This document shows, piece after piece, positions 52,636 to 64,000 of a DNA stretch of 64,000 nt. The translations under genes were made by a program, and so were the position numbers. The notes below the pieces were generated by a model. The model saw nothing but the letters and a program-made list of their open reading frames with translations, searched no databases and was not told where the DNA came from. Source of the stretch: a virus; IMG/VR virus record IMGVR_UViG_3300046780_000427, positions 1-64,000 of that record; one strand, written 5' to 3'. Every line of letters begins with the position of its first letter. Position 1 is the stretch's first letter.

Positions 52636-53205
52636 GTGACCGACACCCAGCCTGAGGCAGCGTTCCGGCTAGGCCCCCAGCAGTTCGACCCCGCTATACC
52701 TGTTGAGTCGATCAGCGAGCACCCCCGCAACCCGAACGAGGGCGACATCGGGGCCATCCATGAGTCGATGGGGCAGCACGGGTTCGTCGGGGCGATCATG
52801 GTTCAGCGGTCCACCGGGTATGTCCTGGACGGCAACCACACCTACCGGACTGCTGTCGCGAAGGGTGCCCTGACCCTGCCCGGGTTCTGGCTTGACGTGG
52901 ATGATGATGAGGCCCTGCGGATCCTCATGGATATCAACCACACCGCCCGCCTCGGCCGCGACGACCTGGCCCTGGCCTCCGCGCTCCTGCTGGATTTGCG
53001 CGGCCGCGGGGACCTGCCCGCGTCCTACTCCGATGACGACCTGCAGCAGATGCTTGATGACCTGTCCGGGCCGGCGGCGCCGGATGAGTTCCCCGAGTAC
53101 GGCGACGACATCAGCACCGAGCACGAATGCCCCCGCTGCGGGTACGCCTTTAGCGGTGGCACTAAGCGGCCTGTGGGCGCTGAGGACGCCGGCGCGGGCC
53201 CATGA
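52636..53205 (+). CDS. ParB-like domain protein with zinc ribbon
   Basis: This 189-residue protein has a ParB/Srx-type domain: IPVESISEHPRNPNEGDIGA, IHESMGQHGFVGAIMVQRST and GYVLDGNHTYRTAVAKGALT, then DDDEALRILMDINHTARLGR. The C-terminus has an HECPRCGYAF Cys pair. Proteins of this type often sit next to phage DNA methyltransferases and may position or control them. It overlaps the methyltransferase gene by four bases and is the first gene of the modification operon. Confidence 0.8.
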   Translation: MTDTQPEAAFRLGPQQFDPAIPVESISEHPRNPNEGDIGAIHESMGQHGFVGAIMVQRSTGYVLDGNHTYRTAVAKGALTLPGFWLDVDDDEALRILMDINHTARLGRDDLALASALLLDLRGRGDLPASYSDDDLQQMLDDLSGPAAPDEFPEYGDDISTEHECPRCGYAFSGGTKRPVGAEDAGAGP

Positions 53206-54698
53206 CCCGGGTGCTCCTGCGCCTGCACCACCACGGCCAGGATTACCGTTGGGCTGATGTGACCGACCGGCCGATGCCGACGATCAACACTATCGGGATC
53301 AGCGACCTCGGCAGCACAGGCCCGGATGGCATCATGATCGCGCCCACCCTGGGAGGCCCCGTGCCCGTAGTCGACAAACCGCCGTACCGGGTCCCGGGCA
53401 TGGGAGAGATCCGGGCCCTGGAGTGGAACGGGTTTACCGCCGCGTCCACGTTCTCGGGGTGCGGCGGCGGGTGCCTGGGCCTGGAGATGGCCGGCTACCG
53501 GATCGGGTGGGCAAGCGAGTTCATCCCCGCCGCCGCTGACACCTACGCCGCGAACCACCCTGGCGTGCACCTGGACACCAGGGACATCCGGCAGGTTGAC
53601 CCGCAGGAGGTCCTGGACATCATGGGCCTGAAGGTGGGGGAGCTGGCCCTGCTCGAGGGGTCGCCGCCGTGCGCCGCGTTCTCCACCGCCGGGGTCAGGT
53701 CGGCGGGGTGGAATCAGCCGCGGAAATATTCGGACACGGTGCAGCGCACTGATGACCTGTTCGGGGAGTACTGCCGGATGATTGAGGGCCTGCGCCCGGC
53801 CGTGTTCACCGCCGAGAACGTCTCCGGCTTGGTCAAGGGTGTGGCGAAGGGGTATTTCAAGGAGATCCTGGCCCGGATGAAAGCCGCCGGCTACCAGGTG
53901 CAGGCCCGACTGTTGGACGCTTCGTGGCTGGGGGTGCCGCAGGCGAGGCAGCGGATCTTTTTCGTCGGCGTCCGCGAGGACCTGGGTATGGCCCCGGCCT
54001 ACCCCAAGCCGCTCCCCTACCGGTATTCGGTGCGGGATGCGTTGCCGCACATCCTCGCCCAGGGCGCCAATACCGAGTTCGGTCAGGCAGCCTGGGAGGA
54101 CGGGTCCCGGCCCTCGGGGAGCCTGGGCGCGGACCCGTCCACCGGTAATGGGCTGTCGCCGCCTGGGCATGTGCTCGAAGTCGCGGAGATCATCACCCAG
54201 CGGGGGCCCAAGGAAGAGCCGCAGTACTCCGCTGGGGACATCACTGACCGGCCCGCGCCGGCGGTCTTGGAGCGGAACGGGAACTATCAGGTCGCCGGCC
54301 CGACTGGGGTCACGCATGACCCGGAGACCGGCGCGGACATCACCATCGGCCGGTATGCCATCGGGAAGGAATGGCTGCGCCTGGCCGAGGGGCAGAAGTC
54401 GGGCCGTTACCAGCAGCTATGGCGTCCCGATGATGGCCGGCCCGTGCCGACGCTGACCGCCCGCGCCGGCGCCGAGGGCGTCGCCGGGGTGATGCACTGG
54501 GCGGAATGCCGCAAGCTCACGTTGGGGGAGCTGCGGGCCCTGTGCGGGTTCCCCCCGGACTTTGTCCTCACCGGGTCCTATAAGCAACGGTGGGAACGGC
54601 TCGGCCGGGCGGTGCCGCCGGTGATGATGGCGCACCTGGCCGCAGCGATCCGGGACCAGATCCTGGTCCCGCTCCGCGCGGATGGGAGGATCGGGTAA
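53202..54698 (+). CDS. Cytosine-C5 DNA methyltransferase with motif X Asn to Arg (predicted carboxymethyltransferase)
   Basis: This 498-residue C5 enzyme has motif I TFSGCGGGCLGLEMAGY (83-99), motif IV EGSPPCAAFS with nucleophile Cys157, motif VI ENVSGL (205-210), and motif VIII QARQRIFFVG (247-256). In motif X the nearly invariant Asn of G-N-x-V-P-P is replaced: the sequence is LGRAVPP with Arg469 (codon 54606-54608). That Asn lies near the transferred methyl group of SAM. In engineered M.MpeI, Lys or Arg at this position permits use of carboxy-SAM. With the CmoA-like gene in the same operon, I predict transfer of carboxymethyl to cytosine. DxxRPxPT-type segments recur at about 20, 345 and 408. 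Confidence 0.85.
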   Translation: MTRVLLRLHHHGQDYRWADVTDRPMPTINTIGISDLGSTGPDGIMIAPTLGGPVPVVDKPPYRVPGMGEIRALEWNGFTAASTFSGCGGGCLGLEMAGYRIGWASEFIPAAADTYAANHPGVHLDTRDIRQVDPQEVLDIMGLKVGELALLEGSPPCAAFSTAGVRSAGWNQPRKYSDTVQRTDDLFGEYCRMIEGLRPAVFTAENVSGLVKGVAKGYFKEILARMKAAGYQVQARLLDASWLGVPQARQRIFFVGVREDLGMAPAYPKPLPYRYSVRDALPHILAQGANTEFGQAAWEDGSRPSGSLGADPSTGNGLSPPGHVLEVAEIITQRGPKEEPQYSAGDITDRPAPAVLERNGNYQVAGPTGVTHDPETGADITIGRYAIGKEWLRLAEGQKSGRYQQLWRPDDGRPVPTLTARAGAEGVAGVMHWAECRKLTLGELRALCGFPPDFVLTGSYKQRWERLGRAVPPVMMAHLAAAIRDQILVPLRADGRIG

Positions 54699-56099
54699 GT
54701 GTGCGGCATCCTCGCCGCGGCCGCCCAGGTGGACCTGTGGCTGGCCCTCGGCAGCCTGGAGCACCGCGGCCCCGACGCGCAGGCGTGGCAGGAGCATGCC
54801 GGGGTCTCACTCGGGCAGACCCGGCTGGCTATCCAGGACCTCGCCCCGGCCGGCGGCGGCCTGTTCACGGCGGGCCCGGTGGTCTGCGCCTACAACGGGG
54901 AGCTGTTCAACGGCCCGGAGGTCCGGAGCCTGGTCGAGGCTGCCCGCCCGGGCTACGTGTGGCACACCCACGGGGACACGGAGACCGTCACCGCCGCCCT
55001 CGGCGTCCTGCACCCGCAGGACGCCCTCGCCGCCTTCGACGGCATGTTCGCCGTCGCCTGGGCTGACACCCGGCACCCGGGGGTCCTGTTCTGCGCGAGG
55101 GACAGGTTCGGGGAGATCCCCCTGCACATCCACCGGCACATCCCGGCGCTGGTCGCCTCAGAGATCAAAGCGTTCGCCGCGCTTGGCCGCAGGTGCGGCG
55201 ACGCGGTGATGGAGATCCCCCCGGCGTCGGTGTGCTCGATCCGGCATGCCGGCGCGCAGGTCACCGTCTCCCGGTACCTCCCTGCCCTGCCACCGGTCCC
55301 CGCACCTCCCACGGACCCGCCCGCGGAACTGCGCCGCCGGATCCGCGCCGGGGTGACCGCCCGGCTGATCAGCGACGCCCCGATATGCACGCTGCTGTCC
55401 GGTGGGCTGGACTCCGCGGTGATCGCCTACGAGCTGGGCCTCCTGGTCCCGGGCCTGGTGGCCTACACCGCGGTCATGGACAAGCACTCCCCCGACCTCC
55501 GCGCCGCTAGGGTCTGCGCGGAGCATCTTGGGGTGGAGCTGCGTGAGGTCACCATCGACCCGCCGTCCGCCGATGACCTGGCGAACGTGGTGCGGCAGAT
55601 CGAGCAGCCGCACAAGGCGCAGGTGGAGATCGGGTGGCCGTGCCTGGCACTGGCCAGGCAGATCCGTGAGGACGGGTTCAAGGTCACCTACTCCGGGGAA
55701 GGCGCCGATGAACTGTGGGCCTCCTACGGGTTCGCCTACCACGGCGTCAAGCAGCACGGCTGGTTTGGGTACCGGTTGCGGTTGATCACCGAGCAGCACC
55801 GGAAGAATTTCCCGAGGGTCAATAAGGCGTTCATGGCCCACGCGGTGGAGGCACGGTTGCCGTGGCTGGACCCCGGTGTCGTCGGCGTGGCCCTCGCCCT
55901 CCCGGTGGGCCTGGTCCGCACCCGTGGCCGGCTCAAAGGCATCGTGGAGGACGCCTACCACGACGTACTGCCGGGCAAGATCCTGGCCCGGTCCAAACTG
56001 GCATTCCAGGACGGCCTGGGGATGAAGGAAGCCGCCGCCTCGGTGGCGGTCAAACCAAGGGAGTTCTACGGTGTCGAGTACCGCCGGGCATATAGCTGA
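54699..56099 (+). CDS. AsnB-like class II amidotransferase/ATP-dependent amide synthase
   Basis: This 466-residue protein begins GTG-Cys2, the glutaminase nucleophile. It has family positions EHRGPDAQAW, YNGELFN, GDTETV and ARDRFGEIPL. The synthase half has the pyrophosphatase loop LLSGGLDSAVIA (234-239 core), YSGEGADELWASYG and AVEARLPWLDP. It should take ammonia from glutamine, activate a carboxylate with ATP and make an amide. Free aspartate is the usual substrate. Here the operon suggests the carboxyl group on carboxymethylcytosine, giving carbamoylmethylcytosine (inference). It starts immediately after the methyltransferase stop. Confidence 0.82.
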   Translation: MCGILAAAAQVDLWLALGSLEHRGPDAQAWQEHAGVSLGQTRLAIQDLAPAGGGLFTAGPVVCAYNGELFNGPEVRSLVEAARPGYVWHTHGDTETVTAALGVLHPQDALAAFDGMFAVAWADTRHPGVLFCARDRFGEIPLHIHRHIPALVASEIKAFAALGRRCGDAVMEIPPASVCSIRHAGAQVTVSRYLPALPPVPAPPTDPPAELRRRIRAGVTARLISDAPICTLLSGGLDSAVIAYELGLLVPGLVAYTAVMDKHSPDLRAARVCAEHLGVELREVTIDPPSADDLANVVRQIEQPHKAQVEIGWPCLALARQIREDGFKVTYSGEGADELWASYGFAYHGVKQHGWFGYRLRLITEQHRKNFPRVNKAFMAHAVEARLPWLDPGVVGVALALPVGLVRTRGRLKGIVEDAYHDVLPGKILARSKLAFQDGLGMKEAAASVAVKPREFYGVEYRRAYS

Positions 56100-56865
56100 A
56101 CCTGCCAGGGTCGAGGGACTGCGGGACCTGGCCCCCGATCCCAGGTCGGACCTGGCTGGCCGGTTCCCCGGCGGCGGGTGGCAGTTCACCTCCGAAGTCG
56201 CAGCGGTGTTCGATGATCATGTGCGCGCGTCGGTGCCGTTCTACGATGCGATCCAGTCGCTGATCGCGGAGCTGGCGGACTGGCTCCTCCCCGCGGGGGG
56301 CCTCCTGGCCGACCTGGGTTGCTCGACGGGGAACACTGCCGCGGCGATCCTCATGCGGCAGCCCGACCGGGGCCTGCGCGTGCACCTGTACGACGAGTCG
56401 GTGCCGATGCTGGCCAAGGCCCGGCCCATGCTCGAGGGGCTGGCACCGGGCCGCGTGGCAGCGACGATCGGCCGGCTCCCCGGTGAGGGACTGGAACACG
56501 CCGGCGCGGACCTGACGGTGGCCGCGTTCCTGCTCCAGTTCCTGCCCTGGGCGGACAGGTTCCGGCTGCTGTGCATGGCCCGGGCGGCGGCTGCGGAGAC
56601 GGGTGCGCTGATCCTCGCGGAGAAGACCCGCCCCGCTGACTCCCGGTGGGCGGAGATCGCCGCTGAGGTCTCCCACGATGTGAAGGAATCCAACGGGATC
56701 ACCGCCGGGGAGATCCGGGCCAAGGCCCGGTCGCTGCGCGGCGTCCTGCTCCCCGGCCGCCTGGACTATGTGATGGCACAGGCCGAGGAGGCCGGGTGGT
56801 GTTCCCCGGAGGTCCTGTTCCGGTGGCATTCGTGGGCAGTGATCGGCGCGTTCGCTACGCCCTGA
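56071..56865 (+). CDS. CmoA-like carboxy-SAM synthase
   Basis: This 264-residue class I SAM fold follows CmoA along its length: WQFTSEVAAVFDDHVRASVP, FYDAIQSLIAELADWLLPAG, DLGCSTGN (81-88), FLLQFLPWADRFRLL, LILAEKTRPADSRWAEI, SHDVKESNGITAGEIRAKAR, and a C-terminal WCSPEVLFRWHSWAVIGAFA. Arg220-Ser221 aligns with the CmoA Arg-Ser (Arg199 in E. coli) that contacts the cofactor carboxylate. CmoA makes carboxy-SAM from SAM and prephenate for tRNA wobble uridines. No CmoB gene is present here, so the cofactor is presumably for the DNA enzyme. It overlaps the AsnB-like gene by 29 bases. Confidence 0.75.
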   Translation: MSSTAGHIAEPARVEGLRDLAPDPRSDLAGRFPGGGWQFTSEVAAVFDDHVRASVPFYDAIQSLIAELADWLLPAGGLLADLGCSTGNTAAAILMRQPDRGLRVHLYDESVPMLAKARPMLEGLAPGRVAATIGRLPGEGLEHAGADLTVAAFLLQFLPWADRFRLLCMARAAAAETGALILAEKTRPADSRWAEIAAEVSHDVKESNGITAGEIRAKARSLRGVLLPGRLDYVMAQAEEAGWCSPEVLFRWHSWAVIGAFATP

Positions 56866-63237: not shown

Positions 63238-64000
63238 ATGTGGCACCGCAGGAGGACCTGCCCGGACTGCGGGCTCCGGCATGACATGAGGGCCTGTCAG
63301 GAGGGCGGGTTCACCTGCTCCTGCTGTGAGGCTATCGAAGCCATTACACCCGAGCAGGCGTTCGCGATCAGCCCGATCAACAGGTGGTGGCCGGCTGACC
63401 GGCCACGCCAGGCTGGTGTCGTTGCCGGCCTCGGCACCACTGCTGCCGTGTGGTGGGCGTTCGGCCCGGTGGCGGCGGGGGTGTCGATGTTCACCCTGTC
63501 CGGGGTGGCCTACGTGATCGCCCGCCTGACCGGGGAGGAGATCTCGGGCCGCATGGCCCTCGCCCGGGACATGGCGGCCGAGTCGATGCTGCACCTCCTG
63601 CACGACCCGGCCGGGGTGTCGTCGGTGGCGATCGTCGGCCCCGCCCGTGGCCCCTACAGGTGGCTGGTCTGCTACCGGGACGGCAGGACCGCAGGAGGCT
63701 GGGGACCCACTGAGCGGCTGGCCCGCAGGTGGGCGTTGGCCTGCGCCAGGTGGCCGAAACGGCGGAGGATGCTGAACATGACCTACCGGACTTTGCGGAT
63801 CAACCCGGCGACCGGCGGGATCATCCTGGACCCCCCGGGCACGCTGCCCACCCAGGCTGAGGGTGACCTGATCATCCGGCCCCGGTGCCCTCGGTGTAAG
63901 CGGTCGGTGGCGGTCGAGTTCGGCGACGTGTCCCTGCCTGGTGAGCCCGAGGCGTGGCTGCCCGTCGTGGCGTCCTGCCGGACACCGGACTGCACCAGGC
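63238..64000 (+). CDS. Partial membrane protein with zinc motifs (runs off the window)
   Basis: The frame is open from ATG 63238 (AAAGGAGG at 63226-63233) to the window end, at least 254 residues. N-terminal Cys pairs (TCPDCGLRHD, CSCC) come first, then a hydrophobic region of two spans (GVVAGLGTTAAVWWAFGPVA, MFTLSGVAYVIA). A soluble part follows, with a C-terminal zinc ribbon (CPRCKRSV...CRTPDC). Its stop codon is outside the window. Function is unknown. Confidence 0.55.
   Translation, partial: MWHRRRTCPDCGLRHDMRACQEGGFTCSCCEAIEAITPEQAFAISPINRWWPADRPRQAGVVAGLGTTAAVWWAFGPVAAGVSMFTLSGVAYVIARLTGEEISGRMALARDMAAESMLHLLHDPAGVSSVAIVGPARGPYRWLVCYRDGRTAGGWGPTERLARRWALACARWPKRRRMLNMTYRTLRINPATGGIILDPPGTLPTQAEGDLIIRPRCPRCKRSVAVEFGDVSLPGEPEAWLPVVASCRTPDCTR

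Follow-up and report, generated by a model that had tools for sequence, protein, structure and literature searches.

The CmoA-CmoX-CmoY system of Synechococcus phage S-B43, published by Yang et al. in December 2025 (PMC12783734), is the closest described relative of the locus studied here. According to that paper, the phage CmoA is an active synthase of carboxy-SAM (Cx-SAM), and CmoX transfers the carboxymethyl group from Cx-SAM onto C5 of cytosine in a GC context. Cx-SAM was the only cofactor accepted by wild-type SpCmoX. In the structure PDB 8YF3, Arg350 of SpCmoX, which replaces Asn304 of HhaI, lies on the carboxymethyl/carboxylate group, and the variant R350N accepted neither SAM nor Cx-SAM. 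SpCmoY, a ligase without a glutaminase domain, was found to ligate glycine. Candidate sets of 5,615 CmoX, 4,257 CmoA, 2,251 ligase and 1,660 ParBc sequences were assembled, and no N6 or N4 candidates were seen by these authors. They also described a separate second ligase cluster that contains a glutaminase domain and for which the use of ammonia was inferred. As soluble protein of the glutaminase-type ligases was not obtained, none of the phages in the paper has a proven amide product (PMC12783734).

The DNA under study, called the window, extends from base 1 to base 64,000 of a virus record that is 72,058 bases long. It encodes a portal protein, a prohead protease and a minor tail protein, and therefore belongs to a tailed phage or prophage. 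It contains a tightly packed cassette of four genes in the order ParB-like protein, C5 enzyme, glutaminase/asparagine-synthetase and CmoA-like protein. The features are as follows:

52636..53205, + strand: ParB-like protein, 189 aa (phrog_723 / phrog_8071, ParB-like partition protein, E about 1e-20)
53202..54698, + strand: predicted CmoX-type DNA cytosine-C5 carboxymethyltransferase, 498 aa (PF00145, E 1.4e-49; 8yf3 is the best sequence and fold match)
53670..53672, + strand: codon of the catalytic Cys157 in SPPC, motif IV (aligned to SpCmoX Cys98)
54606..54608, + strand: codon CGG of Arg469 in the motif X column (equivalent to SpCmoX Arg350 and HhaI Asn304)
54699..56099, + strand: predicted CmoY-type amide ligase with an N-terminal glutaminase domain, 466 aa (PF00733, E 1.2e-39; PF13537, E 6.7e-20)
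56071..56865, + strand: predicted CmoA-like Cx-SAM synthase, 264 aa (TIGR00740, E 1.5e-30, under the curated cut-off)

The ParB-like gene shares its last 4 bases, including the stop, with the beginning of the C5 enzyme gene, and a Pfam search with the 189-aa ParB-like protein gave no match. The ligase gene has a GTG start and directly abuts the C5 enzyme gene. The genes for the ligase and the CmoA-like protein overlap by 29 bases, and the identical overlap is present in Streptomyces phage TurkishDelight.

Like the window, S-B43 has neighbouring genes for a CmoA-like protein, a C5 enzyme with SPPC and a motif X Arg, and an asparagine-synthetase-like ligase, and SpCmoX and the C5 enzyme of the window are 39% identical. 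The two loci differ in that SpCmoY (271 aa) lacks the N-terminal glutaminase domain that is present in the window ligase, that the gene orders are unlike, and that the ParB-like gene is a feature of the window. The complete gene order of the window, from ParB to the CmoA-like gene, is found in genes 121-125 of TurkishDelight (NC_073473; host given in the record: Streptomyces scabiei RL-34), with identities of 53% for the C5 enzyme and 59.7% for CmoA. TurkishDelight has two ParB-like genes and the window has one, and its cassette is annotated merely as ParB-like, methyltransferases and an amidotransferase domain. ParB-like genes adjoin the C5 homologue both in TurkishDelight and in PaBG. By its description, A0A7T0Q3R0, which Yang et al. 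place in their second ligase cluster, resembles the window in combining glutaminase and synthetase domains in contigs with CmoX (PMC12783734). The same paper describes the engineered carboxymethyltransferase M.MpeI N374K, the positive residue of which mirrors the CmoX Arg; unlike the window enzyme, it is a product of engineering and has no natural CmoA partner.

The first-pass annotation of this DNA had proposed that the C5 enzyme carries an Arg instead of the Asn of motif X, and that the enzyme is not simply decayed. Translation of the open reading frame of 498 aa showed that the CGG codon indeed encodes Arg469 within LGRAVPP (surrounding residues: WERLGRAVPPVMM). The proposed column was also correct, because in an alignment with PDB 8YF3 Arg469 falls on the Arg of ERVGRMVPP, which is Arg350 of SpCmoX, while this column is occupied by Asn (GNAVP) in the HaeIII methyltransferase and in mouse DNMT1 in the same alignment set. 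FSGCGGG, GSPPC with Cys157, AENV and QARQR, which we take to be motifs I, IV, VI and VIII, are all present, as had been claimed. The whole 72,058-base record contains no other PF00145 gene.

A sequence search of the PDB with the C5 enzyme yielded 8YF3 as the best match (E 8.9e-56; next 5.5e-22). The same entry was the best match of the predicted structure with Foldseek (E 1.7e-26; next 3.6e-20) and with VIA (Z 38.7, 314 residues, rmsd 2.4; next entry 32.3). The model has a mean pLDDT of 75.3; the segments 1-53 and 285-365 are weak, and the motif X region lies in blocks above 90. All nine residues of SpCmoX that were compared (F25, E47, F48, D69, S95, P96, P97, C98, R350) are identical in the window enzyme. 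The counterparts of F25, E47, F48 and D69 in the Cx-SAM pocket are F84, E106, F107 and D128, and S95, P96, P97 and C98 correspond to S154, P155, P156 and C157. It is hardly conceivable that the enzyme has decayed and that motif X is merely drifting: every catalytic motif is intact, the frames of the cassette are open throughout and show the 29-base overlap known from TurkishDelight, and members of the family normally carry Arg at this column. Arg469 is not a chance substitution, because Arg is the commonest residue in the column (113 of 138 representatives among the matches listed). Instead, the group that the C5 enzyme transfers to cytosine in DNA is most likely carboxymethyl and not methyl.

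The first-pass annotation had further reasoned that a single positive charge at this position is what is needed to accept the negatively charged carboxy-SAM. This is in line with the contact between Arg350 and the carboxymethyl group in SpCmoX, but in the reverse direction it is too simple, because R350N does not gain SAM and accepts neither cofactor (PMC12783734). The use of Cx-SAM, which had been deduced from the motif X Arg and the CmoA-like neighbour, is supported by the orthologous system of S-B43. Therefore, the idea was correct in kind and is already in print.

The best curated family for the CmoA-like protein was TIGR00740 (E 1.5e-30), followed by PRK15451, and the best PDB matches were E. 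coli CmoA (4gek/4iwn) and H. influenzae YecO (1im8). The protein scored below the equivalog cut-off of TIGR00740 (106.7 versus 193.3), and the proven SpCmoA is likewise below it (115.6). Because of this score, the protein is called CmoA-like and assigned to a phage subgroup, not to the strict equivalogs. Arg199 of E. coli CmoA is the salt-bridge ligand of the carboxylate (PMC3663124). The window has Ala219 at this column, the proven SpCmoA has Glu and PaBG has Arg, and further differences to E. coli CmoA are found at Asn90, Asp117 and Asn132. CmoB is described to recognise the carboxymethyl group by Lys91, Tyr200 and Arg315 (PMC4482062), and thus Cx-SAM enzymes differ in how they recognise this group. 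The phage CmoA-like proteins have a common Arg in a FRW/FWR stretch (Arg251 in the window), which is invariant in four phage sequences. The stretch with Arg251 may take over carboxylate binding where the counterpart of E. coli Arg199 is missing. From the sequence comparisons we infer that the window protein is a Cx-SAM synthase.

The best PDB match of the ligase was E. coli asparagine synthetase B (1ct9), and the alignment extended across both domains. The ligase has kept Cys2, TRLAIQD, YNGELFN, GDTETV, SGGLDS and GEGADE. Among these, Cys2, the motifs of the glutaminase domain, the SGGLDS loop and GEGADE have roles in asparagine synthetase. As the glutaminase domain has been kept, 5-carbamoylmethylcytosine is expected as the product, and the ligase is predicted to amidate 5-carboxymethylcytosine to this base. 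Alternatively, carboxymethylation could take place and the ligase could couple glycine or another amine, with the glutaminase domain idle or feeding an alternative reaction. The use of glycine by SpCmoY would fit this view, but SpCmoY has no glutaminase domain, whereas the window ligase retains the N-terminal Cys and the glutaminase motifs and aligns with asparagine synthetase B over both domains. Yang et al. placed such ligases in a separate cluster and also inferred ammonia for them (PMC12783734), and thus glycine coupling is regarded as improbable. No account of 5-carbamoylmethylcytosine as a natural base was found in the literature searched.

The co-occurrence of the motif X residue with a CmoA-like neighbour was analysed with relatives that had been gathered by similarity to the methyltransferase only, from six picked phage records and three IMG/VR scans with the best 80 matches each. 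An IMG/VR scan for close relatives with the C5 protein of the window alone as query gave no matches, and alignment queries were needed. A locus was defined as up to 10 kb on each side of the C5 gene. Including the window, 167 loci were obtained among the matches listed. Motif X could not be read in one of them (L093), which is cut by a contig end, and the residue in the remaining 166 listed matches was Arg (132), Asn (32), Leu (1) or Met (1). Merging at 95% identity resulted in 138 representatives, again among the matches listed, with 113 Arg, 23 Asn, 1 Leu and 1 Met. A CmoA-like open reading frame was present in the locus of 107 of the 113 Arg representatives (109 of 113 at the level of the record) and of none of the 25 non-Arg representatives among the matches listed. 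The coupling between Arg and CmoA that the first-pass annotation had put forward for comparison was thus recovered in viral and phage DNA. Fisher's test gave a p of 7e-21 for the 95% representative set, the rows of which are related to one another. When only the 50 representatives flanked on either side by 3 kb or more were counted (matches listed), CmoA was present with 37 of the 39 Arg enzymes and with none of the 10 Asn enzymes or the single Met enzyme. A synthetase-like ligase was found in 25 of these 39 Arg representatives and a glutaminase domain in 12, and neither was found in the 10 Asn representatives of this subset (matches listed). CmoA profile scores in the first 126 loci and the window were either at least 60 bits or at most 7.3 bits. 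From the CmoA subgroup with the lower scores, 34 proteins were checked with NCBIfam together with SpCmoA, and all 35 matched TIGR00740.

Two of the six Arg exceptions, Dickeya phage AD1 (L006, CmoA about 17 kb away) and L162, have CmoA elsewhere in the record and were therefore dismissed as counter-examples. The four others (L063, L086, L117 and L155) are short contigs of 9.8, 12.5, 15.0 and 16.7 kb. These data also bear on the possibility that the window encodes an ordinary 5-methylcytosine methyltransferase with an incidental Arg, next to a CmoA and a ligase that serve another function. Close relatives with Asn exist (32 loci among the matches listed), mostly with a ParB neighbour, and therefore the C5 scaffold can be a plain methyltransferase. 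Yet CmoA accompanies the Arg and not the non-Arg representatives, and wild-type SpCmoX takes Cx-SAM only (PMC12783734), so that this explanation is very unlikely.

As a separate observation, the CmoX-like gene of Dickeya phage AD1 (L006:8064-10193) contains an insert of roughly 350 residues between SPP and the catalytic Cys. It starts with Cys and ends with HN ahead of a second Cys, and judged by these end motifs it is presumably intein-like. The CmoX-like genes of related Erwinia jumbo phages are similarly long.

The reciprocal view started from CmoA. A readable C5 enzyme was present in 69 of 80 CmoA-side loci, and all 69 had Arg. The remaining 11 loci had CmoA and no C5 gene (L205, L173, L176, L193, L206, L186, L182, L226, L246, L245 and L248), and among them only L205 had PF00145 elsewhere in the record. 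The loci L173, L176, L193 and L206 start less than 1 kb upstream of CmoA, and L246 is 4.4 kb long. L226 is a 7.2-kb contig that lacks a C5 gene; immediately upstream of its CmoA lies an adenine methyltransferase of the D12 class (PF02086, E 1e-26; L226:3545-5237).

Bacterial genomes contributed 73 loci, with 41 Arg, 7 Asn, 20 Met, 1 Ala, 1 Tyr and 3 that could not be read. The same association was seen, with CmoA in 37 of the 41 Arg loci versus 0 of the 29 loci with Asn, Met, Ala or Tyr. Among the four exceptions, the assemblies of L349 and L363 contain a full-length match to TIGR00740 outside the locus, and L350 and L359 are located at contig ends and have only weak partial TIGR00740 matches elsewhere. 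Arg, CmoA, ligase and glutaminase occur together in five loci of Streptomyces and Nonomuraea genomes (L314, L332, L335, L346 and L347). In the 8.3-Mb genome of Streptomyces sp. CCM_MD2014 the sole TIGR00740 match lies within the cassette locus, and thus this host shows no other CmoA.

Two further groups were noticed in these data. Two Verrucomicrobiota MAGs contain six CmoX-like loci each (L316, L323, L326, L327, L330 and L331; L317, L319, L325, L328, L333 and L374), of which 11 of 12 have the motif X Arg and a CmoA-like gene; motif X of the twelfth, L374, was not reliably read. In a branch of C5 methyltransferases that is rich in Bacteroidota, the motif X column is occupied by Met (GMSVPP), and CmoA is present in none of the loci seen (L361, L364-L373, L375-L380, L382, L384, L386 and L007).

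A quick tree of 101 rows contained 5 changes between Asn and the rest, with Asn rows nested among Arg rows. An AU test was performed with a 51-row subset, outside of which were L007, L118, L074, L152, L101, L095, L103, L120, L125 and near-copies. A single Asn clade was not rejected (p 0.911), and therefore repeated switches between Arg and Asn are not claimed. One or a few evolutionary events may be behind the counts, so that the contrast is strong as a pattern and weak as a count of independent events.

Taken together, the cassette very probably (about 90%) belongs to the CmoA-CmoX-CmoY systems, by which phages hypermodify DNA, and its pathway would end in the predicted base 5-carbamoylmethylcytosine. 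The CmoA-like enzyme would convert SAM and prephenate to carboxy-SAM. Cys157 of the C5 enzyme would attack C6 of cytosine, like other C5 methyltransferases, and the carboxymethyl group would be moved to C5, its carboxylate being held by Arg469. The ligase would adenylate this carboxylate, and ammonia freed from glutamine by its own N-terminal domain would be coupled to yield the amide. The small ParB-like protein may serve to guide the enzymes on the DNA or to recruit them there, and the bulky base would protect the phage DNA against host nucleases.

Two of the CmoA loci without a C5 gene, L186 and L182, pointed to a different arrangement. They contain a ParB-like gene, then a fusion of ParB with a Rossmann methyltransferase, and then CmoA, and the fusions match PHROG 5475 of unknown function (E 1e-89 and 3e-92). 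This gene order recurs in Gordonia phage Evaa and Pseudomonas phage SM1, and in Aeromonas phage HJ05 CmoA directly follows the fusion. No PF00145 was found in the whole records of Evaa, SM1 and HJ05, and no C5 enzyme in five whole records with a PHROG 5475 fusion. The following fusion genes were located:

L254:702-2237, PHROG 5475 fusion gene
L256:7932-9488, PHROG 5475 fusion gene
L255:1032-2624, PHROG 5475 fusion gene
L186:7781-9397, PHROG 5475 fusion gene
L182:5188-6855, PHROG 5475 fusion gene

A scan with the fusion alone, together with the prior loci, gave 60 rows, 58 of which are distinct (L186 equals L258 and L256 equals L303). A CmoA-like open reading frame of at least 40 bits was found on the same strand downstream of the fusion in 54 of the 58 distinct loci, at distances from an overlap of 178 bases between the reading frames up to 2.7 kb. 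The four loci without CmoA are L267, L304, the contig of which ends 337 bases on, L308, which lacks the methyltransferase half, and L312, which is 20% identical. Neither a ligase nor a glutaminase was detected in the 58 distinct loci. One 61-bit match to the C5 profile was found in L259 and L260, and there was no full-length C5 methyltransferase in the PHROG 5475 loci. The fusion model (pLDDT 89.7) shows a ParB/Noc-like domain joined to a Rossmann methyltransferase. Among the solved structures listed, ParB/Noc came closest to residues 1-117, whereas the part from about 218 to 466 was nearest to METTL6 and other Rossmann methyltransferases. No published account of the pair of PHROG 5475 fusion and CmoA was found in the open PMC literature.

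The fusion is thus a candidate for a second type of Cx-SAM-dependent transferase. The chances appear evenly balanced that the phage carboxy-SAM chemistry of DNA has two unrelated transferases, the C5 type, which with a glutaminase ligase would lead to 5-carbamoylmethylcytosine, and PHROG 5475, which combines a ParB CTPase-fold with a Rossmann domain and would act on another position or base. In addition, phage HJ05 has a DAHP synthase gene as the third gene after CmoA (L255:6257-7420; PF00793, E 1.2e-49), which could feed the shikimate pathway and raise the level of prephenate, the carboxyl donor for Cx-SAM.

The kind of system is already known, and the window adds a further member, with a predicted amide product. 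The CmoX system is thereby extended to actinobacterial phages and prophages, and it can be assayed directly in the cultured phage TurkishDelight and with a sequenced Streptomyces chromosome. A genomic rule emerges from one residue and one neighbour, namely Arg with CmoA, and Asn, Met or Leu without it. For the glutaminase-type ligases the base 5-carbamoylmethylcytosine is predicted. If the view of PHROG 5475 outlined above is true, the Cx-SAM chemistry of DNA would extend beyond C5 of cytosine.
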